Shown here in pieces: positions 1-9,938 of a DNA stretch of 10,113 nucleotides (its first letter is position 1; the number at the start of each line of letters is the position of its first letter). The notes below the pieces were generated by a model. That model saw nothing but the letters and a program-made list of their open reading frames with translations. It did no database searches and had not been told where the DNA came from. The DNA is taken from assembly GCA_002784795.1 (NCBI GenBank), contig PFLZ01000075.1:1-10113 (forward strand), given 5' to 3'. Origin of the DNA: Candidatus Magasanikbacteria bacterium CG_4_10_14_0_8_um_filter_42_12. GTDB taxonomy: Bacteria > Patescibacteriota > Patescibacteriia > Magasanikbacterales > UBA922. The position numbers were made by a program, and so were the translations under genes.

Positions 1-1
1 T

Positions 2-88
2 GGAGAGGTGACTGAGTGGTCGATAGTACTACCTTGGAAAGGTAGCATACGGGAAACCGTATCGCAGGTTCGAATCCTGTCCTCTCCG
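2..88 (+). tRNA. tRNA-Ser (anticodon GGA)
   Basis: A complete class II tRNA cloverleaf can be folded. The acceptor stem is GGAGAGG (2-8) with CCTCTCC (81-87), followed by the discriminator G88. The anticodon stem CTACC/GGTAG encloses the loop TTGGAAA, with anticodon GGA at 36-38, which reads UCC and UCU. A long variable arm, ATACGG-GAAA-CCGTAT (47-62), is diagnostic of tRNA-Ser. The T arm contains TTCGAAT. After the discriminator the sequence reads CATA, so the 3' CCA is not encoded and must be added by CCA-adding enzyme. The gene lies directly upstream of a large accessory-looking gene, a setting typical of tRNA-targeted integration. Confidence 0.97.
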
Positions 89-123
89 CATAAAAATTCT
101 CGAATCCAAACGATAGTTGAAAA

Positions 124-151
124 TTGTCAGATGTTGTGCAAACAAGATAAT
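124..151 (+). promoter_or_regulatory. Candidate sigma70-type promoter for the 1086-aa gene
   Basis: A TTGTCA hexamer (124-129) and a GATAAT hexamer (146-151) are 16 bp apart, close to the -35/-10 consensus. Transcription would begin near 158, leaving about 30 nt of leader before the ATG at 188. This suggests the large gene is transcribed on its own rather than by readthrough from the tRNA. It is a pattern match only. Confidence 0.4.
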
Positions 152-187
152 CGGACGAAGTCTGGAAAATGATAACAGGCAAGGATT

Positions 188-3100
188 ATGGATCATCAAA
201 ATAAAGACTTTTCCCCAAGAAGCTTTATGGAACAACGCCGACCTGGCAGTTTTTCCGATACGCAAGTGGTAAAAGAATCGCAACTAGACAGTTCGAAGCT
301 GGAATATCACTTGTACACCCTCTCGACAAGAAAACAGGAGTACGATTTTGAAGAGTTCGCACGAAAACTTTGCCAGCTTGAGATTCAGCCAAACCTAAGA
401 AAACAAACTGGTCCTGTCGGTGGTGGTGACGGTAAAGTAGACACAGAAACAACCCCAATATCAGAGGCTATCAAAGACACCTACTATTTCGGAGTTGAAA
501 AAGCATCCAATGAACGTTGGGGCTTCGCTTTTAGTACTACTGTAAACTGGAAAACAAAAGTAAAAGGAGACGTAAAGAAAATGATTGAGACATACAGGAG
601 CTATACGAAAATATTTTTCGTAACCAGTCAGTTTATCAAGGCAGATCAGCGGGCTAAAGTTGAAGATGATCTGAGTAAACAATATGGCATTCAGGTTGTG
701 ATACATGATCGCACTTGGATAATCGATAAAGTCTTTGGAAATAAACGACAAGATCTGGCTATCGAAGAACTCAAAATAGATCCTTCATACAAGGAGGTTG
801 TAAAGATTGGACCGAAAGATACAGATCGGCAGGTTTCATTTGAAAAACTCAACAAAAGCATCGAAGAGGCCGTGCAAGAAGATAGGGTGAACTTTGCGAC
901 GGTAGACGACTCCATTTCGATAGCAATCGTTGCTGCCAAAATGAATAAACCCAAAACCGAGGTGGAGGGCTTGTTCGTGCGCGCAAAAAGACTGGCAGAG
1001 AAATACGGTTCTTCTGAGCAGGTCTTTACTGCAAAGTACCAAGAGATATGGACTCTGTATTTTTGGTACAACGATTACGATATTTTGATCAACAACTACC
1101 AAGAGATCGAATCTTTAAATGACGGTACCGTGAACATATTTGCGGTTGAAAGACTGAGTAATCTGTTGAGTCTTTTGAGAACTATTGCTGTAATCACCGA
1201 TAAAGTGGAGATTAGTTACGCAGATGCAAAAAAGAAAATAGTACAGGACAAGCTTCGGGTATTTAAAGACGATGAATCAAGGCCAAGTGCATCACTTCAA
1301 GCAGAATACATGCTACAGATACTGGAGATGCCTGATGCGAGAGATAATCAAGAAGCGATGAGTGCCATTTTCGACAACCTTAAAGATATTGTTGATCGTT
1401 CAAAGGGCTTGCTAGGATTTCCCCTTGAGATGATCTACAAGTTGACTGGTGATATGAACGATTTCTACACTGGGAACACTGCGTTTGAAGAACTTCAGGA
1501 CAAACTGGTTGATGTTATCTCGGAGAGAAAAAGCTCAGCAGAGACAGCGCATGTTCTTTTGGAACGTACCGCACAGCACATTGAGGGAAAGAGATTTTAC
1601 AAAGCAATCGCTTGCTTGGGTAAAACATTGGTGCCTCTTTATAAAGAGGAAGAAAGAGATGGTTTAATCATAGCCCTTGCTCAACTATCTTTTGCTTACG
1701 AAGCGGTCGGATTACTTTGGGCGGCGAGAGCGGCGATGTTACACGCTGCTTCTTATGCAACCATGGACTTTCATAGCGCGGGAGAAATAAACAAACTACA
1801 ACTACTATCTTACGCTCGGCTGAGATTGCTTGAGCTTCGCTTGGGAAGAGTTGGTTATTCTCTCGATTGGCACAGGCTGAATCACGGAATGAATTACCAG
1901 TTTCTTAACAGTAAGGAGGAAAAAGAAAAACTCCTTCATGACGACATACACTACGGTGCTCAGCTAGGTCTTCTTTTGATAAAGACTCCAGATTTTGCTC
2001 TCCCTGATGTAGAACTTTTACCAGACTCGTTGTTGAGTATGGACCTTGATTTTGCGGCTTACGGATTAATCTATCGATTGGGCGGAAAGAAGATTCTCCT
2101 AGAAATAATGCCTGAAAAAATGGCAGACATGGAACTTGAAGAGTTCTTTGACTCCTACATGACTCAGCCATCTCAAAAAGATTTGTCTCAAGAGCCAGCG
2201 TTCTATTCTGGCGAAAGGGTTACTTTGAAATCGGTCATATTAGGAACAACATTCATTGTTGAAACTGAAAATCAGAGCCCGAATATCGAAATCGGAGAAT
2301 ATACCCTTGCTTCACTGGAAGGATTTTTGGCAACTACGATGGAGATGAACTCTTACGGAAATAAGAGCGTCGTGAAAATAACGATTACCAGAGATAGTTC
2401 GCTGGGTATTAAGGTTTTTCATTTGATAAAGAAATACGGGTCGATCGCTTTTGATATAACCTGTGGCGATTTCAATCCACACTCATTGAAGCGTTCCGAA
2501 CAAGAAACCATTCACTCAGACGTGTTTAAAGCCGTGGTAGACATCATTGGACACTCAATATCTTTCAGAGATGCCCATACAGATCTTGAGAAACTTTTCC
2601 GTGACGAAGATGTCGGGGTCCGTGCATTCACATTCTCATCACCACTTGTCGTGCAGGGTAACGTTTTGGGCTACAAACCAAAGAGAGACATCAAGGATTG
2701 GATGCCAGAGGGAAACAAAAGATACGAATACAATGAGGCGGAATCTGGGAAACTAAAACCCGAGTTACTTGCAAATCCAAGAGATGACGAAGAAGAGGAA
2801 AAAGAAAAAAGAAACAGGAATGCGGTGCGGCATGATCAAATGGAAAATGTCTCAATTATTGAAGAGCATCTTTGGAATGAAGCTGGCTGGGAGGGCATTG
2901 CCTATCTTGTCATGCCAGAACGACCCCCAGTGCTTGCTGTGATGTTTACCAATGAAGAAAAAGCAAAAGCCATTTTCCGTAATTGGACTGATCGATTCGG
3001 AAGAGAAGATAAGGATGAAATCATACGTGTGGCGACGATAATGGGCTTCACTAAAGCTAACCCGCTTTGGTATAAATTCGTTATCTCAACCAACTTGGGC

Positions 3101-3448
3101 GATCCTAAGGACTTCAAAGGAAAGCTGATTCTAAACGCAGGAAGAACCCATACTATGACTCCTCAAACACTGAATAATCTCAATGGATTTATTGATGGTT
3201 ACGAACGATGGGGTTACTACCTTATCGCACCATCTTTTATAAAAGATAAAAAAACGTTCCCGCCTAAGGTATTTTTTGACCACGGTATCATTAAAAGAAC
3301 ATTCGTAAACAAGAATGCTTGGGAAATAGGTCCGCTGGATCCAGAAATAATGGGTCTGAGGCCAGAAGATTCCGATCCAGTTATACCTGAGGGAGTAACC
3401 AATCCGCCCATATTCGAAACAATCGAAGCTATTTTGAAAAATAAATAG
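188..3448 (+). CDS. Large putative defence protein: N-terminal PD-(D/E)xK-like nuclease domain plus helical repeat region
   Basis: This 1086-aa protein has no signal peptide or membrane segment, so it should be cytoplasmic. Residues about 38-185 resemble a restriction-nuclease (PD-(D/E)xK) fold: a helix FEEFARKL (54-61), a GPVGGGDGKVDTE segment (75-87) with candidate metal-binding D81 and D85, a strand FAFSTTVNWKTK (113-124) where the (E/Q)xK motif is expected but is degenerate, then strand FFVTSQFI (143-150) and IHDRTWIIDKVF (172-183). Residues about 210-620 are rich in amphipathic helices, consistent with TPR-like repeats. A charged DDEEEEKEK linker near residue 870 precedes a C-terminal region I do not recognise. 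A nuclease fused to a large sensor-like helical body fits single-gene phage defence, which is inference. The first ATG has AAGGA only 2 nt upstream; ATG at 227 (residue 14) is an alternative start. It sits alone behind a tRNA gene. Confidence 0.8.
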   Translation: MDHQNKDFSPRSFMEQRRPGSFSDTQVVKESQLDSSKLEYHLYTLSTRKQEYDFEEFARKLCQLEIQPNLRKQTGPVGGGDGKVDTETTPISEAIKDTYYFGVEKASNERWGFAFSTTVNWKTKVKGDVKKMIETYRSYTKIFFVTSQFIKADQRAKVEDDLSKQYGIQVVIHDRTWIIDKVFGNKRQDLAIEELKIDPSYKEVVKIGPKDTDRQVSFEKLNKSIEEAVQEDRVNFATVDDSISIAIVAAKMNKPKTEVEGLFVRAKRLAEKYGSSEQVFTAKYQEIWTLYFWYNDYDILINNYQEIESLNDGTVNIFAVERLSNLLSLLRTIAVITDKVEISYADAKKKIVQDKLRVFKDDESRPSASLQAEYMLQILEMPDARDNQEAMSAIFDNLKDIVDRSKGLLGFPLEMIYKLTGDMNDFYTGNTAFEELQDKLVDVISERKSSAETAHVLLERTAQHIEGKRFYKAIACLGKTLVPLYKEEERDGLIIALAQLSFAYEAVGLLWAARAAMLHAASYATMDFHSAGEINKLQLLSYARLRLLELRLGRVGYSLDWHRLNHGMNYQFLNSKEEKEKLLHDDIHYGAQLGLLLIKTPDFALPDVELLPDSLLSMDLDFAAYGLIYRLGGKKILLEIMPEKMADMELEEFFDSYMTQPSQKDLSQEPAFYSGERVTLKSVILGTTFIVETENQSPNIEIGEYTLASLEGFLATTMEMNSYGNKSVVKITITRDSSLGIKVFHLIKKYGSIAFDITCGDFNPHSLKRSEQETIHSDVFKAVVDIIGHSISFRDAHTDLEKLFRDEDVGVRAFTFSSPLVVQGNVLGYKPKRDIKDWMPEGNKRYEYNEAESGKLKPELLANPRDDEEEEKEKRNRNAVRHDQMENVSIIEEHLWNEAGWEGIAYLVMPERPPVLAVMFTNEEKAKAIFRNWTDRFGREDKDEIIRVATIMGFTKANPLWYKFVISTNLGDPKDFKGKLILNAGRTHTMTPQTLNNLNGFIDGYERWGYYLIAPSFIKDKKTFPPKVFFDHGIIKRTFVNKNAWEIGPLDPEIMGLRPEDSDPVIPEGVTNPPIFETIEAILKNK

Positions 3449-3454
3449 TTTTTT
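3429..3454 (+). terminator. Weak AT-rich terminator overlapping the stop codon of the large gene
   Basis: CTATTT (3429-3434) pairs with AAATAG (3443-3448) around an 8-nt loop, and six T follow (3449-3454). The right arm includes the TAG stop codon. The stem is short and purely AT-rich, so termination may be inefficient. Confidence 0.3.
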
Positions 3455-3489
3455 GTATTTTTGTCCATTACGTTACAAGTGTTGAAAGT

Positions 3490-3515
3490 CCGCCGTGCTC
3501 CGAAGAACACGGCGG
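3490..3515 (-). terminator. UUCG-tetraloop hairpin downstream of the small minus-strand gene
   Basis: On the minus strand the arms CCGCCGTGTTC and GAGCACGGCGG form an 11-bp stem closed by C(UUCG)G, one of the most stable RNA tetraloops. One pair is G-U on the minus strand but would be a C-A mismatch on the plus strand, so the minus-strand RNA is the one that folds best. The hairpin starts 21 nt past the stop of the 83-aa gene. The following T tract is poor (ACTTTCAAC), so it could be a terminator or a 3'-end stabiliser. Confidence 0.6.
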
Positions 3516-3536
3516 GTCGTGATGTATACGTTGAGA

Positions 3537-3788
3537 TTAGGTCATGCTGACCGTCTCATCGATCCTGATCGGATTGGGATCCTCCAACCCCCGTCCGAGA
3601 ACAAAGCGCGCCCGACGTGTTGTGTTGTCATCCGAGTATTGGGTGGAAGGTTTTTCCTGGAAGACAACACCGAATGGAATTCCTTCTGTCACTATGCGCA
3701 TCAACTGCTGTGCCGCAAACTCTGGGGAGTTGCAGCGCTGAAGCGTTTTTATCACGTGGTCGCGTATGGTCGCGTGGTCGTACGTCAC
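3537..3788 (-). CDS. Small hypothetical protein, 83 aa
   Basis: The start is GTG at 3788, chosen because a perfect AGGAGG (plus-strand positions 3793-3798) lies 4 nt upstream; the open frame extends further upstream but without support. The product begins MTYDHATIRDHV and ends with DETVSMT. It has a predicted N-terminal helix (about 7-35), a hydrophobic GIPFGVVF strand (36-43) and an Arg/Asp-rich tail, with no membrane segment. I do not recognise the family. It has a candidate promoter, a strong ribosome site and a downstream hairpin, so it looks like a self-contained gene. Three 60-nt rows of it that I counted hold 35, 31 and 35 G+C (about 56 percent), against 25 of 60 in a pyrD row, which hints at a foreign origin. 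It is divergent from msrA. Confidence 0.6.
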   Translation of the reverse strand: MTYDHATIRDHVIKTLQRCNSPEFAAQQLMRIVTEGIPFGVVFQEKPSTQYSDDNTTRRARFVLGRGLEDPNPIRIDETVSMT

Positions 3789-3810
3789 ATTTCCTCCTAT
3801 GGTGAGTACC

Positions 3811-3839
3811 AATGTAGATAAATTTGCTCTCTTTGCCAA
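3811..3839 (-). promoter_or_regulatory. Candidate promoter of the 83-aa gene
   Basis: Reading the minus strand, TTGGCA (3839-3834) and TACATT (3816-3811) are separated by exactly 17 bp. Transcription would start near 3804, a few bases before the AGGAGG at 3798-3793, giving a leader of about 16 nt. The -35 box is back to back with the candidate msrA promoter, so regulation of the two could be linked. Confidence 0.45.
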
Positions 3840-3845
3840 GGAATA

Positions 3846-3874
3846 TTTACATATGTCACTTTGACCTGTACACT
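3846..3874 (+). promoter_or_regulatory. Candidate msrA promoter with repeated ACATATGTCAC boxes
   Basis: TTTACA (3846-3851) and TACACT (3869-3874) are 17 bp apart and would start transcription near 3880, about 22 nt before the msrA ATG. The 11-mer ACATATGTCAC, which contains the palindrome ACATATGT, occurs at 3849-3859 overlapping the -35 box and again at 3898-3908 overlapping the msrA start codon. Two copies of a palindromic site 49 bp apart around a promoter look like a possible repressor operator pair, but no regulator is visible here. Confidence 0.4.
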
Positions 3875-3901
3875 GACATCGTGGTTTTCTGAAAAAAACA
3901 T

Positions 3902-4399
3902 ATGTCACATATAAAAAAAGCATATCTCGCAGGCGGATGCTTTTGGGGGATGGAAGAACTGTTCCGAATTCAGCCTGGCGTTGTAGATACGCAAGTAGGC
4001 TACACAGGAGGAGAAAACGATGATCCTACGTATGAATATCACCCAGGACATGCCGAAGCATTGGAAATTTCATACGACGGAGAAAAGACATCATTCAAAA
4101 ATATCCTTGATTTCTTTTTTCGTGTGCATGACCCGACCACAAAAAATCAACAAGGCAATGATATCGGATCTTCGTATCGGTCTGCGATTTTTTTTCAGAA
4201 TGATGAAGAAAAGCGAGAAGCAGAAGAGTTCATCGATCTCGTGAATGCATCAAAGCGTTGGGATAAATTTGTCGTGACGACACTCGAACCCTTCAAGGCA
4301 TTCTATCCGGCAGAAACATATCATCAAGATTATCTGCAAAAAAATCCTGGTGGGTATTCTTGTCATTTTGTAAGAGGTGATTCATATTTTAAGGATTGA
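3902..4399 (+). CDS. msrA: Peptide-methionine (S)-S-oxide reductase MsrA
   Basis: MsrA reduces methionine-S-sulfoxide in oxidised proteins and peptides, repairing oxidative damage in the cytoplasm. The 165-aa product carries the catalytic GGCFWG motif at residues 11-16 (nucleophile C13), the GHAEA segment (49-53) with the conserved catalytic glutamate E52, and the [12 protein letters not shown] motif (134-145) followed by NPGGYSCHF. Only one other cysteine is present (C154 in YSCHF), a likely recycling cysteine; there is no C-terminal second resolving cysteine as in the longer E. coli enzyme, and there is no fused MsrB domain. Its length is normal for compact bacterial MsrA. The start ATG lacks a clear Shine-Dalgarno. 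It is divergent from the 83-aa gene and is separated from pyrD by a 118-bp gap that holds a palindromic repeat. Confidence 0.96.
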
Positions 4400-4415
4400 T
4401 TAAATTGAAATTGAT

Positions 4416-4504
4416 ACGTCATCTCGAGCGAACGAAGTGAGTCGAGAGATCTCGATGCTAAGACGAGATTCCTCGATTTCGCTGCGCTCCACTCGGAATG
4501 ACGT
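4416..4504. repeat. 89-bp palindromic interspersed repeat between msrA and pyrD
   Basis: The element begins ACGTCAT (4416-4422) and ends ATGACGT (4498-4504), exact terminal inverted repeats. Its interior is an imperfect palindrome: the left arm has TCGAGCGAACGAAGTGAGTCGAG and AGATCTCG, and the right arm has CGAGATTCCTCGATTTCGC and GGAGCGCAGCGAAAT on the complement. It resembles the Patescibacteria-type intergenic palindromes I recall from many genomes, which have no coding capacity. It could act as a transcript-end hairpin for msrA or as a non-autonomous mobile repeat. Confidence 0.75.
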
Positions 4505-4517
4505 GTAAAGTAACCTT

Positions 4518-5594
4518 ATGTTCCCAATAGATCAAATCGTTCACTATACTTACAAATATATTGCAAAACCATTTCTTTTTCGACGTGATCCAGAAGACGT
4601 GCATGATACAGCCTTAACACTTGGAAAAACACTTGGAAAAAGTGTGCTTGTGAAATCTTTTTTTCGTGTTTGTTTTGGACACCAGGATGATTCTTTACGA
4701 CAAACCGTATGTGGCATTACTTTTCAAAACCCTATAGGACTCGCGGCAGGTTTTGATAAAAATGCAGATATTCTCGATATTTTGCCAACAATTGGATTTG
4801 GCTATGCAGAAGTAGGATCTGTAACAGGGGGGGCGTGTGTCGGGAATGCAAAACCACGTCTTTGGAGAATTCCAGAAGAAAAAAGTCTTCGTGTCTATTA
4901 TGGATTGAAAAACGATGGGGCCGAGGCTATTTCGGCAAGATTGAAAGGAAAAACGTTTACCTTTCCAGTTGGCGTGAGTATTGCAAAGACAAATTCGCCT
5001 GCGACTGTTGAAACAGAACAGGGGATTGCGGATTATATGAAAGCAGCGGAAGCGTTTCGAGATATTGGAGACTACATCACGATCAATACCAGCTGCCCAA
5101 ATGCATTTGGCGGAGAGGCATTTTCTGATCCAGCGCGACTTGAATTACTTCTGAAGGCATATAGAGAATTGAAGATTCACAAACCAACGTTTTTAAAGCT
5201 CGCTGCAGATCTCACGCATGAACAGCTCGATCAGATTATTGAATTAAGCAACACATACAATATCGACGGATTTATTTGTACCAATTTGAAAAAAGAAGCA
5301 GGCGAAAAAGGAGGTTTGAGTGGTAAATCTGTTGCATCTCTTTCTGATGATATGATTGCAAATATCTATAAAAAAGTTGGCAAGAAAAAAGTGATTATAG
5401 GGTGTGGTGGTATTTTTTCTGGAGAGGATGCATACCGAAAGATACGAAAAGGTGCTACACTGGTGCAGTTGATCACAGGAATGATTTACGAAGGACCTCA
5501 GCTTATTTCTGAAATCAATAGAGATCTCGTTCGACTACTCAAGCAAGACGGCTATACTCATATTTCAGAAGTAATAGGCATAAATACATTATGA
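4518..5594 (+). CDS. pyrD: Dihydroorotate dehydrogenase, class 2-like (quinone-type), with unusual active-site residues
   Basis: The product (358 aa) oxidises dihydroorotate to orotate in de novo pyrimidine synthesis using FMN. Class 2 membership is supported by the N-terminal extension (residues 1-65), which in this class contacts the membrane and quinone, and by NPIGLAAGFDKNA (71-83), VGNAKPRLWRIPEE (108-121), K227, TN at 255-256 and the FMN-phosphate loops GGLSG and GCGGIFSGED. Aligned by eye to E. coli PyrD, the catalytic Ser175 is replaced by Cys193 (NTSCPN, 190-195), the base typical of class 1 enzymes, and orotate-contacting Asn111 aligns with Val126 (SLRVYYGLKN). The other contacts N190, N195 and N256 are kept. 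No Shine-Dalgarno is seen. Its stop overlaps the ATG of the next gene by 4 bp (ATGA), so the two are translationally coupled. Confidence 0.93.
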   Translation: MFPIDQIVHYTYKYIAKPFLFRRDPEDVHDTALTLGKTLGKSVLVKSFFRVCFGHQDDSLRQTVCGITFQNPIGLAAGFDKNADILDILPTIGFGYAEVGSVTGGACVGNAKPRLWRIPEEKSLRVYYGLKNDGAEAISARLKGKTFTFPVGVSIAKTNSPATVETEQGIADYMKAAEAFRDIGDYITINTSCPNAFGGEAFSDPARLELLLKAYRELKIHKPTFLKLAADLTHEQLDQIIELSNTYNIDGFICTNLKKEAGEKGGLSGKSVASLSDDMIANIYKKVGKKKVIIGCGGIFSGEDAYRKIRKGATLVQLITGMIYEGPQLISEINRDLVRLLKQDGYTHISEVIGINTL

Positions 5595-5896: not shown

Positions 5897-5936
5897 ATGT
5901 ATACTGAAAGTAATGTTTTAACAAAAATCTATTTGT

Positions 5937-6008
5937 ATTTGTTAAAATCTGTTAAATCTGCTGTTATTTTACAGCAGATTTAACAGATTAGAGCAGATGT
6001 TAACAAAT
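5937..6008. repeat. Nested inverted repeat upstream of the 6028 gene
   Basis: A perfect 19-bp inverted repeat (5946-5964 with 5971-5989) encloses the 6-nt loop TATTTT. Outside it, ATTTGTTAA (5937-5945) is matched by TTAACAAAT (6000-6008), with a 10-nt bulge on the right side. The arms repeat the motif TCTGTTAAATCTGCT. No T tract follows on either side, so it is not a canonical intrinsic terminator. It ends 20 bp before the next ATG and may be a mobile palindromic repeat, a cruciform site or a binding site. Confidence 0.8.
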
Positions 6009-6027: not shown

Positions 6028-6882
6028 ATGCCTCCAAAAAAAAAGAAAAAAGACACAATGGCTGCAGAAAAGCCAAAAAAGTCCGCCCAAGGCGGATCTG
6101 CCTTGGGCGGGAAAAAAGCACGAGCAAAACAGACTCCTGCTCCTGTTGAGGTAAAAGAAACGCCTGCTCCTGTTGCTCCAATGAACAATAGTTCTTCAAC
6201 ATCTACAAAAAAACATGGCAGTGGGGGAGCGACATTGTTCATTATTATCATACTCCTCATCGCGGTAGCAGGCGTATATGCGTATCAAAAAAAGCAGACA
6301 GACTCTGTTGTCTCAAAACTTTCTACGCTCGAATCAAAACTTTCCAATAAAATTGGAGAGATAGAAGTTGGTATTGATACAGCAAAACAGCAAGCAGAAG
6401 AAGACAAAATGAACGCGATTGCTGACGCAACCACAAAAAAATATACAAGTGCAAAATATGACTATTCTTTTATCTATCCAACGAAGTATAAGGTGCTCAG
6501 TCTGAACACGGATATAGATGAAACATATAAGGAACAAATTGTCCTCATGCGTGACTCTGATAGAGAGCTGTACGCAGACTCACTCGAGGGCGGACCTACA
6601 ATAAGTTTTCAGCTCTATACCAATACAGAAAATCTTCCGCTCGTTGATTGGTTGTCAGTGAATACAAAGGCATCCAATGTTTCTGAAGAAACACAACTTC
6701 TCGATATGACGATCGATGGACGGCAAGCATATGGCTACACTTGGGAAGGGCTCGGTGCTGCAGATGCTGTGGCTGTGTCATTTGATGGATATGTGTTGCT
6801 TGGTACTGGATGGTACATGGATGAAGCAAATATAGAAATTCGAGGAGATTTTCAAGCTATAGCACAGTCGCTTTCACTATAG
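6028..6882 (+). CDS. Single-pass membrane-anchored protein with extracytoplasmic coiled coil and PsbP-like domain
   Basis: The 284-aa product has a Lys-rich cytoplasmic tail (MPPKKKKK...), a low-complexity Pro/Ala linker with the repeat TPAPV at 36-40 and 45-49, one transmembrane helix (about 68-86), a short coiled coil rich in SKLSTLESKLSNKIGEI (about 92-125) and a C-terminal beta-rich domain starting at YDYSFIYPTKYKV (about 144). This opening resembles PsbP-like domains found in many bacterial lipoproteins and anchored proteins. By the positive-inside rule the C-terminal domain faces outward. Residues 19-29 (SAQGGSALGGK) are encoded by a GC-rich palindrome. No Shine-Dalgarno is visible. The function is unknown; a surface-exposed or cell-envelope role is inferred only from topology. 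Confidence 0.88.
   Translation: MPPKKKKKDTMAAEKPKKSAQGGSALGGKKARAKQTPAPVEVKETPAPVAPMNNSSSTSTKKHGSGGATLFIIIILLIAVAGVYAYQKKQTDSVVSKLSTLESKLSNKIGEIEVGIDTAKQQAEEDKMNAIADATTKKYTSAKYDYSFIYPTKYKVLSLNTDIDETYKEQIVLMRDSDRELYADSLEGGPTISFQLYTNTENLPLVDWLSVNTKASNVSEETQLLDMTIDGRQAYGYTWEGLGAADAVAVSFDGYVLLGTGWYMDEANIEIRGDFQAIAQSLSL
6083..6110. repeat. GC-rich palindrome embedded in the coding sequence
   Basis: CCGCCCAAGGC (6083-6093) and GCCTTGGGCGG (6100-6110) are a perfect 11-bp inverted repeat around the loop GGATCT. It lies in frame inside the Lys/Ala-rich, presumably disordered N-terminal tail. A-runs flank it on both sides (AAAAAA before, AAAAAA after), so read on the minus strand it has the form of an intrinsic terminator (hairpin then TTTTTT). 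Confidence 0.85.
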
Positions 6883-8926: not shown

Positions 8927-9272
8927 ACATGAGAATACCCGCAACAATGGACGTATTCACAATAAACCAAAGGCTATACATGATGACAATTGGGATGGCT
9001 TTGTGAATAACACCGTATGTGAGGAGAAAAATATTTGCTATGACGCTAAAAGCAAACATCGTCAGTGATACACCGGCAGCTGTTTGTTCTACCCATATTT
9101 TGATCGCCTGTGTACTGCCTGCGATAGGGGCGAGAATACTGACGCCATAGACAGCATGATCCATCATGGAGACAAATGCTTTTGGGTGTGGATATGGTTG
9201 ATACTTTTTCTTGAGTGACGCTTTTGCGTGTACCCGTTTTCGTTTGTGGATATGATGGATTGGGTCGGACAT
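8919..9272 (-). CDS. SemiSWEET / PQ-loop-like three-helix membrane protein
   Basis: The 117-aa protein has a basic cytoplasmic tail of about 36 residues (HKRKRVHAK, KKKYQPYPHPK) and then three transmembrane helices (about 38-60, 67-88 and 92-115), the architecture of SemiSWEET sugar transporters, which work as homodimers. Family-like features are the helix-1 P49...TQ55 segment (the classical PQ is TQ here), AAGVSL (65-70), LLTYG (83-87) and N106 in the third helix, where SemiSWEETs hold a substrate-pocket asparagine. The N-terminal extension is longer than in the usual 85-95-aa members. Its last codons overlap the start of the metalloprotease-like gene by 8 bp. Sugar transport is inferred from fold only. 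Confidence 0.8.
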   Translation of the reverse strand: MSDPIHHIHKRKRVHAKASLKKKYQPYPHPKAFVSMMDHAVYGVSILAPIAGSTQAIKIWVEQTAAGVSLTMFAFSVIANIFLLTYGVIHKAIPIVIMYSLWFIVNTSIVAGILMYG

Positions 9273-9275
9273 ATA

Positions 9276-9310
9276 GGAATGTAGAATGTGGAATGTTGAA
9301 TTCAGAATGT
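9276..9310. repeat. Five tandem heptamers in the 5' leader of the SemiSWEET-like gene
   Basis: Positions 9276-9310 divide exactly into five 7-bp units, NGAATGT, with the fourth degenerate (TGAATTC). They occupy most of the 48-bp gap between the stop of the 9321-9938 gene and the start codon at 9272, so any transcript from the nearby -10 site would carry ACATTCY repeats in its leader. Confidence 0.8.
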
Positions 9311-9314
9311 TGTA

Positions 9315-9323
9315 AGTATATCA
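9315..9323 (-). promoter_or_regulatory. Candidate extended -10 promoter for the minus-strand three-gene cluster
   Basis: On the minus strand the sequence TGATATACT fits an extended -10 element (TGnTATAmT-like). Its TGA is also the stop codon of the 9321-9938 gene. No good -35 box is seen at the usual distance. Transcription would start near 9307, inside the heptamer repeats, about 35 nt before the SemiSWEET-like start codon. Confidence 0.35.
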
Positions 9324-9938
9324 TTCTTTTATAAAAGTGTCTTCAATTTTTTTTCTGATTCCAATTTGAAATTTTTGATCGAAAGAAATACCATTTTGCG
9401 TACTTATTTTCACTTTAGCGGTGTATTCCCCTGGCACTAAAGTGTACGAATTGTTGCGCCAATTGTGAAAGTAAGATTCGTTATTCCATCCATATGCTGC
9501 TTCATCCGTTTCTGACTTGGTAAATACATCCATGATTTCTTTTTCTCCAACAGGAAGTGTTACTGGATCTGGGTGTTGGAGTTTTACGATTGCTTCATGC
9601 GGTATGTGTGGAATTTCTGGTGTGGAAGACCACCTCCCCTCATATACGAAAATTGGTGAGTTTTCATCTTTTTTATATATCTCAATTTTACCTCTGCAAT
9701 TTTCTGCTGTTTGTCTGGGAATCCATGATAAGAGTTTAGGAAATTTTTTGTTTTCTACTTCTACTCTAAAAAATTTCCATCTTTCATTCGCACGTGGATT
9801 TGGTTCTCTGTATGTATTGTCAGAATTAGCTGATTCAGAAGCCCTAATTATCAGTTTTGGCATTCTCAACCTTTCAATCCATATAGCGATTAAAACCGCA
9901 ATTAATGAAGCAATTAAAGATATCAAAAAATTTTCCAT
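9321..9938 (-). CDS. Membrane-anchored hypothetical protein, 205 aa
   Basis: A single N-terminal transmembrane helix (residues about 3-22, FLISLIASLIAVLIAIWIE) is followed by RLRMPKL. Basic residues directly after the helix place the soluble part in the cytoplasm by the positive-inside rule. The rest looks beta-rich: WKFFRVEVENKK (about 53-64), GKIEIYKKDE, FVYEGRW, and a terminal YTLVPGEYTAKVKISTQNG stretch that resembles an Ig-like or C2-like sandwich. Similar anchor-plus-beta-domain hypotheticals occur in many bacteria and archaea, but I do not recognise a named family. The start ATG at 9938 is preceded by AT-rich sequence with TATTAT/TATATA boxes and no Shine-Dalgarno. It ends 48 bp before the SemiSWEET-like gene and may be read with it. 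Confidence 0.8.
   Translation of the reverse strand: MENFLISLIASLIAVLIAIWIERLRMPKLIIRASESANSDNTYREPNPRANERWKFFRVEVENKKFPKLLSWIPRQTAENCRGKIEIYKKDENSPIFVYEGRWSSTPEIPHIPHEAIVKLQHPDPVTLPVGEKEIMDVFTKSETDEAAYGWNNESYFHNWRNNSYTLVPGEYTAKVKISTQNGISFDQKFQIGIRKKIEDTFIKE

Follow-up and report, generated by a model that had tools for sequence, protein, structure and literature searches.

The DNA analyzed here (hereafter the window) is the entire contig C95, 10,113 bases long, from the genome of Candidatus Magasanikbacteria bacterium CG_4_10_14_0_8_um_filter_42_12 (1.04 Mb in 169 contigs). Near its left end, beside a tRNA gene, lies an open reading frame (ORF) for a protein of 1086 amino acids. An earlier note had singled it out as a possible undescribed single-gene defense protein, composed of a degenerate PD-(D/E)xK nuclease domain, a long helical body, and an unrecognized C-terminal region. 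The frame runs from position 188 to 3448 of the plus strand without an internal stop codon, and a search with its translation returned 54 homologs of 26 to 96% identity, 50 of which cover 98 to 100% of the query. These homologs, together with 14 invariant positions in the family alignment, rule out a chance ORF. The family is real, large, unnamed, and mobile, and we argue that its members may well protect cells against phages or other mobile elements. The gene and the parts of its product are as follows, with counts referring to an alignment of 88 sequences.

188–3448, plus strand: the whole gene, encoding the 1086-residue predicted nuclease-TPR (tetratricopeptide repeat) protein (ORF reading, homolog searches, and GC content at third codon positions, GC3)
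215–259, plus strand: conserved N-terminal peptide, residues 10–24, consensus SPxxFMRxRRPExFSDS (S23 in 88 of 88, D24 in 84 of 88)
308–772, plus strand: predicted Mrr-like PD-(D/E)xK domain, residues 41–195, the most conserved part (hhalign to Mrr_cat, identity)
350–352, plus strand: E55, candidate motif I acid (84 of 88)
428–442, plus strand: D81-x-K83-x-D85, candidate motif II with putative metal-binding aspartates (88 of 88 each)
533–541, plus strand: S116-T117-T118, in the place of (E/Q)xK in motif III (S116 in 88 of 88)
557–571, plus strand: K124-xxx-D128, candidate motif IV, with a lysine possibly replacing that of motif III (88 of 88 each)
773–2167, plus strand: helical body, residues 196–660, TPR-like in part (TPR_12 matches, sister-family match)
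2168–3445, plus strand: unrecognized C-terminal region, residues 661–1086 (no library match above cut-off)

The conserved N-terminal domain

Among pairs of proteins with 25 to 35% overall identity, the N-terminal domain averages 49% identity, compared with 17 to 38% in other regions. Moreover, 14 of the 53 alignment positions listed are identical in all 88 sequences: S23, F54, T74, G75, P76, G79, G80, D81, K83, D85, S116, K124, D128, and W177. E87 is present in 77 of 88 sequences, with Q in 10. The three motifs quoted in the earlier note are all present, and its D81 and D85 (codons 428–430 and 440–442) were numbered correctly.

The restriction-nuclease layout suggested in that note finds moderate support in profile-profile comparison, which points to a probable link with Mrr, though at low hhalign probability. 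The Mrr_cat family (PF04471) was represented by an alignment of 15 proteins picked from 33 matches in a search of the same phylum. Against it, the N-terminal domain (46 sequences) scored E 0.0023 over 102 columns by hhalign, with the elements in the expected order, and the first segment of the 88-row alignment scored 0.0011. Four proteins of an unnamed sister family, described below, gave 0.0006 over 108 columns when used alone and 0.00065 over 104 columns when added to the family. For the decoys, the best of 19 unrelated families reached 0.027 over 24 columns, and the best of 12 Mrr shuffles and one reversal reached 0.076. Segments of the same family starting at alignment column 200 or beyond gave 0.14 at best, and a partly overlapping segment at column 100 gave 0.054. 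A PDB sequence search with the window protein returned nothing at E ≤ 1, and no credible Pfam sequence match was found for the N-terminal domain profile.

The order of elements shared with Mrr comprises an FE helix, a GDxGxD-type motif II, the third strand, the next helix, a TTS/TNQ strand, and an IDG/LDR strand, where the strands and helices of our family are putatively assigned from the Mrr alignment. The Mrr sequences used mostly carry Q-x-K in motif III, whereas the window family has S-x-(K/T/Q) together with the invariant K124. In addition, the open frames in that Mrr search mostly encode 200 to 600 amino acids and lack the body and C-terminal region of the window protein. Because the canonical motif III, (D/E/Q)xK, is not found (S116 in all 88 sequences, T118 in the window protein), we call the domain Mrr-like rather than a canonical member.

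The earlier note observed that the lysine two residues past the catalytic position is not obvious, which is true of the window protein (S116-T117-T118); family-wide, position 118 is K in 65 of 88 sequences and another residue in 23. Of the two lysines offered in its place, K124 stands, since it is invariant, whereas K122 does not, since K occurs there in only 35 of 88 sequences. K124 lies eight residues past S116 and four ahead of D128, and this KxxxD arrangement is retained in four sister proteins and in a STAND-like protein that carries a related domain. D81 and D85 are likewise kept in the four sister proteins, there within GGDQGRD. Describing the motif as degenerate is therefore misleading, as the odd motif is family-wide, the candidate aspartates never change, and K124 is invariant. 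PMC1913061 describes PD-(D/E)xK families in which threonine often stands at the motif III lysine position and the lysine itself was probably relocated to the helix after the third strand. By analogy, we propose that K124, which the alignment would place in the helix after the third strand, is a migrated motif III lysine, and we consider this the best reading of the missing residue.

One alternative is that the N-terminal domain keeps the nuclease fold and only binds DNA or RNA, serving in defense as a scaffold, decoy, or regulator. Such a role would suit the absence of the motif III lysine from 23 of the 88 sequences, the window protein among them, and the serine that replaces E/Q in every member. 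We nonetheless regard it as unlikely, because D81, D85, K124, and D128 are invariant across very diverged proteins, because D81, D85, and KxxxD persist in the sister family, and because pure binding would rarely demand such constraint. Migration of the lysine to the following helix has, furthermore, been proposed for other families in the portion of PMC1913061 available.

Body, C-terminal region, and sister proteins

The helical-repeat body predicted in the earlier note may be TPR-like, with weak support. At E ≤ 1, TPR_12 was matched by 10 of the 32 members, in each case weakly and at best with 0.002, RPN7 matches one member of 32 (3.6e-5), and 8 of 120 homologs, among the matches listed, bear the source name "tetratricopeptide (TPR) repeat protein." The C-terminal region proved as unrecognizable as had been stated, with no library model above cut-off, and the fastest divergence falls at residues 761 to 880 (17% mean identity). 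The Walker A pattern of P-loop ATPases occurs in 0 of the 88 sequences. Hydropathy reveals no clear membrane segment in the window protein, and 3 of the 88 rows exceed the 1.9 mark.

The sister family consists of unnamed plasmid proteins of 980 to 1031 amino acids in Agrobacterium, Mycobacterium gordonae, Blastomonas, and Streptomyces (tblastn E 9e-7 to 2e-3). The family profile, run on a chosen set of five proteins, detects the nuclease-like domain at E 4e-17 to 8e-26 and, at about residues 381 to 522, the middle repeats at i-E 3.7e-19, 6.7e-16, 2e-12, and 4.6e-5. The two families thus have the nuclease-like domain and the middle repeats in common. They differ in that the sister proteins carry GGDQGRD where the window family has GGDxKxD, and in that their C-terminal third is hardly alignable. 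They also lack the FSDS N-terminal peptide: the peptide encoded at 215–259 (ending FSD) was not seen at the N-termini of four sister proteins. Such a pattern would fit a protein whose effector comes first and is followed by a variable sensor.

A related N-terminal domain, aligning with positions 118–194 of the window protein (E 2.2e-5 for one genome, with 198 searched), was also detected in a 1524-residue protein at L189 (2932–7506, minus strand) that looks STAND-like from its sequence. A tblastn search of plasmids with this STAND-type N-terminal domain found no match.

Spread of the family and exchange at the tRNA-Ser gene

The family extends well beyond the 54 homologs. A search with residues 36–200 of homolog P0025 made 2357 of 2517 candidates significant, the best 120 of these 2357 being the matches listed. 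In a collection of 84,980 species represented by one genome each, 240 of 259 pattern-matched stretches encode a relative; all locus work on this collection rests on the best 80 of the 240. Matches also occur in 15 plasmid records, of which 10 cover at least 80% of the protein, on 12 viral contigs (two of these genes being partial), and in one unannotated record of a phage collection. When the window protein alone served as query, viral contigs yielded no relative.

Within groups, presence is patchy. The only positive genome among 379 of the window's phylum is the window's own. Among 198 genomes of a Pseudomonas-type family there are five open frames (1081 to 1119 amino acids), one of them in the genome at the center of the sample, and 26 of 5426 Escherichia coli genomes carry the gene by DNA similarity, 23 of the 26 over at least 80% of its length. 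A tree that joins the window with 58 loci requires 15 changes among its ten phylum labels, where 9 is the minimum and shuffling gives a mean of 21.4, and the window pairs with Chitinophaga at full support among the rows of this 59-row tree, in which phylum labels were taken from record titles and closer relatives without named hosts were left out. This pattern suits transfer between phyla, without proving it. Homologs P0004 (87% identical) and P0010 (72%) are labeled Candidatus Nitrotoga fabula and as a Methanobacteriaceae metagenome bin, labels that reflect either very recent transfer or mis-binned contigs.

The claim that the protein is undescribed is accurate for curated libraries. No model in Pfam, PADLOC, NCBIfam, or PHROG convincingly covers the family, matches being weak and confined to few members, and none of the 32 members scanned matched any PADLOC-DB 2.0.0 model at E ≤ 0.01. 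Matches to phage_tail_N (0.018 to 0.025, two members), PRK11241 (0.0026), and phrog_10100 (0.0038) were rejected as weak and scattered. No title or abstract opening in the literature found describes the family; most subscription full texts and all supplementary tables were beyond reach, and thus a prior prediction or validation is possible.

The location beside a tRNA gene, to which the earlier note had drawn attention, is confirmed and coincides with a site at which cargo has been exchanged. The features of this site are as follows.

2–89, plus strand: tRNA-Ser (anticodon gga), the upstream edge of the cargo site (ARAGORN)
119–172, plus strand: putative 3′ tail of a lost HNH-type restriction gene, 17 codons and a stop, ENCQMLCKQDNRTKSGK-stop (tail comparison)
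139–3476, no strand: exchanged segment, with another gene in G001 (flank alignment, blastn)
181–185, plus strand: AAGGA, weakly resembling a ribosome-binding site, near the start codon (direct sequence reading)

The tRNA-Ser gene is 100% identical in G001 and G002, two genomes of the same genus. In G001, the flanks match at 100% over window positions 1–138 (the contig starts at 1) and at 99.7% over 3477–5023, with no blastn match between them. The intervening space is filled by an 806-residue ORF (L115, 1626–4046, minus strand) that reads like a membrane protein, has no PADLOC match at E ≤ 0.01, and may be another unnamed cargo gene. Because copies of the window family occur on plasmids and viral contigs, and because other cargo occupies the same site in G001, we regard the gene as mobile cargo. 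A second copy of the tRNA 3′ end, the mark of an intact integrated element, was not found in the window, and the gene is therefore taken to be cargo rather than an intact element by itself.

The 17 residues of the HNH-type tail also close a 363-residue ORF in L099 that matches PADLOC REase_II over residues 1–363 (E 1.5e-136). At the DNA level, a match over window positions 119–170 is 85% identical, and there are two further genome matches to the tail. It is evidently a trace of earlier restriction-type cargo. G001 is identical to the window up to position 138 and then continues with a diverged version of the tail ahead of its own cargo, which suggests that the tail common to both may provide homology when cargo is exchanged.

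Other arrangements are seen in related genomes. Next to the window-type tRNA-Ser of G002 comes an ORF whose sequence resembles a serine recombinase, while the msrA side of the site lies on another contig. G003 has a tRNA-Ser(gga) whose sequence differs somewhat, then two other ORFs, and then msrA; between this tRNA-Ser and msrA lies a displaced copy, 30 bases long, of the window-type tRNA 3′ end. At L120 (480–960) of the same genome, tRNA-Ser precedes tRNA-Ser 3′-half fragments split by short palindromes, which resemble scars of repeated integration.

In the window, the gene is followed by the methionine sulfoxide reductase gene (msrA), a dihydroorotate dehydrogenase gene, and further genes. 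Its GC3 of 0.41 contrasts with 0.33 for msrA and 0.29 for the dihydroorotate dehydrogenase gene, a difference that fits recent arrival.

Neighborhoods of homologs and proposed function

The earlier note had connected the gene with anti-phage islands, and many homologs indeed have defense and mobile-element surroundings, with no operon conserved family-wide. An all-against-all comparison of 1387 flanking ORFs (at least 80 amino acids) from 84 genome and plasmid loci and four E. coli loci revealed no partner common to the 88 loci, and the hypothesis of an operon partner was rejected for the family as a whole. The recurrent neighbors, named from annotation or from sequence reading, are tyrosine integrase (8 loci), resolvase (6), ParA (5), ParB (5), and transposase (5). 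The most frequent clade-specific neighbor is a gene for about 239 amino acids, which precedes the family gene by about 230 bases in 10 Pseudomonas and Xanthomonas loci only (L048, at 9054–9773, and the same position in L047, L057, L059, L061, L062, L067, L075, L076, and L079).

Enrichment of defense genes was assessed with 66 loci, after removal of 14 of the 80 that we judged to be near-duplicates or fragments. Taking the closest ORF of 130 amino acids or more on each side gave 123 neighbor proteins, or 122 once an over-long one had been set aside. As controls we used 122 of 275 ORFs, drawn from 18 regions in as many of the same genomes. At E ≤ 1e-10, 305 PADLOC models matched the neighbors compared with 29 for the controls, both counted in overlapping models. 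The 25 neighbor models listed, with 2 to 3 members each, represent Mokosh, type I, II, and III restriction-modification, PARIS AriA, HEC-01, SoFic, HNH, PDC-M06, and PDC-S07, whereas at least 20 of the 29 control models are JetB or JetC with one member each. Pfam families of the neighbors, among the 25 of 123 listed and for neighbors only, include Phage_integrase (5 of 122), Fic (4), and AbiEii, HSDR_N, ResIII, and DNA methylase (2 each). The PADLOC counts, in overlapping models, point to an association with known defense genes above background.

Ten plasmid loci were inspected, that of Sphingobium with PADLOC and the other nine by annotation names. In Sphingobium, the gene is immediately followed by a complete Hachiman pair (HamA E 3e-109, HamB E 2e-274). 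Annotated neighbors elsewhere include AbiEii and NACHT genes (Nostoc), an S8 peptidase with an AAA ATPase (Burkholderia), a Tn7-like gene set with a kinase/phosphatase group (Agrobacterium), an SMEK-domain gene upstream and metabolic genes downstream (a second Agrobacterium locus), HNH and HipA (Polymorphobacter), ParA/ParB (Cohnella), integrases and transposases (Cupriavidus), and conjugation genes (Pseudosulfitobacter). In all four E. coli loci inspected, where the copies are near-identical (about 98%), the gene has an integrase or a fragment of one beside it, with differing surroundings; one of the copies is broken into two ORFs. One of these loci has Drt3 genes about 10 kb away, and in another an OLD-like ATPase that matches PADLOC HEC-04 (E 4e-47) is encoded some 1.3 kb upstream. 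Among the sister loci, that of Mycobacterium gordonae adjoins a gene annotated Shedu with a restriction endonuclease nearby, that of Streptomyces adjoins a HEPN gene, and that of Blastomonas lies near ABC-three component genes.

These surroundings also bear on a second alternative, in which the gene serves the maintenance or competition of mobile elements (partition-linked, anti-plasmid, or toxin-like) rather than antiviral protection of the host. ParA and ParB occur within 1.5 kb in 5 loci, and copies reside on plasmids, viral contigs, and integrase-bordered islands, as such a function would lead one to expect. However, the five ParA/ParB loci come from two groups only, the cyanobacteria and Paenibacillaceae, and elsewhere the neighbors are of restriction-modification, Mokosh, and PARIS types. 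No small partner recurs family-wide among ORFs of at least 80 amino acids, a size below which an antitoxin would escape notice. We consider this explanation improbable.

The reading we prefer, and to which we give somewhat better than an even chance, is that the gene is exchangeable cargo whose product alone acts against phages or other mobile elements, as a sensor-nuclease without an ATPase. For this predicted nuclease we infer the fold, the cutting of DNA, sensing, activation, and protection. The effector would be the Mrr-like PD-(D/E)xK domain (residues 41–195), which would cut DNA with D81 and D85 binding the metal and K124 substituting for the lysine normally found in motif III. A cue from the invader, probably a protein, would be sensed by the TPR-like body together with the rapidly evolving C-terminal region. 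Binding of the cue would then release or oligomerize the nuclease, so that either the invader DNA is destroyed or the infected cell is killed.

Known systems offer partial parallels. Shedu and other single-gene PD-(D/E)xK defense proteins combine a nuclease effector in one protein with a defense context. The window family would be alike in these respects, and a sister protein adjoins a gene annotated Shedu; it differs from Shedu-type systems in that no PADLOC model matches any of the 32 members scanned. STAND/NLR-like defense proteins, such as Avs and its relatives, carry an N-terminal effector, for example a nuclease, and C-terminal repeats. The effector-first layout with repeats is similar, and the STAND-like protein at L189 has a related domain, but those proteins contain a P-loop NTPase domain that the window family lacks. 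In the available text of PMC9122126 on P4 hotspots, STAND proteins with Mrr_cat are mentioned and satellite islands carry such genes, which provides a precedent; the window family was not seen in that text. The accessible part of PMC13092281 (DefensePredictor) reports PD-(D/E)xK nucleases in 13 of 31 validated systems of one group and names TPR in the legend of its Figure 4. The likeness to these systems is one of description only, that part of the source lacking accession tables, and their membership may overlap with the family.

Several observations weigh against a defense role or the nuclease assignment that underlies it. The intact downstream neighbors in the window are ordinary genes (msrA and dihydroorotate dehydrogenase), and the sole hint of defense there is the restriction-type 3′ tail. 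The hhalign probability of the Mrr link is low (13 to 29%), and PDB matches of the family and N-terminal domain profiles are chance-like and were rejected, none being credible: 8g4k (0.011), which we take from its name to be a designed protein, 6q2d (0.063), and 8vpo (0.48). No signal emerged from hhalign comparisons with thin alignments of the Cap4 nuclease (4 sequences) or DUF4365 (2 sequences), tests that are themselves weak, Mrr against DUF4365 scoring only 0.024. K124 is invariant with or without K118, and hence no covariation backs the migration of the lysine. PADLOC models overlap strongly, with one ATPase alone matching 121 models at E ≤ 0.01, and the 305 neighbor models may rest on few proteins, a consideration that slightly lowered our confidence in the preferred reading. 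Of the plasmid loci, nine were read from annotation names, and the Pantoea copy lies among genes annotated for metabolism and transport.

An ordinary cellular role such as DNA repair or RNA processing, with movement by chance, would accord with the housekeeping genes beside the window gene and the metabolic genes around the Pantoea copy, but is highly improbable given the patchy presence in the window's phylum (1 of 379), the Pseudomonas-type family (5 of 198), and E. coli (26 of 5426), the lack of a conserved operon, and the different genes found between near-identical flanks.

If the anti-phage or anti-mobile-element reading is correct, about two thousand protein clusters, mostly unnamed or hypothetical, would acquire a role that can be tested, and the known bacterial immune designs would come to include a compact sensor-nuclease that lacks an ATPase. 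The tRNA-Ser exchange site would then illustrate the swapping of such genes in an organism with a small genome. With D81, D85, and K124 invariant and the family present in E. coli, the defense idea is directly testable. A bolder proposal, whose chances we would put a little short of even, is that the family is an overlooked and very large class of one-protein immune nucleases. Its members would combine a variant PD-(D/E)xK domain, whose lysine has moved to the next helix, with a TPR body and a fast-evolving C-terminal sensor, and would act independently of ATP. The class would span ten bacterial phyla by record title, would also occur in small Patescibacteria-type genomes, and its effector domain would be common to the sister family and the STAND-type protein.

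Three repeats lie farther along the window. A palindromic repeat at 6074–6118, in frame within the ORF at 6028–6882, has matches in several contigs of related genomes, and the G003 counterpart of that ORF encodes a protein without the SAQGGSALGG stretch at the position of the repeat. A dispersed repeat at about 4405–4506, between msrA and the dihydroorotate dehydrogenase gene, has about a dozen matches in G001, and a second, at about 5927–5999, has several matches in G002.

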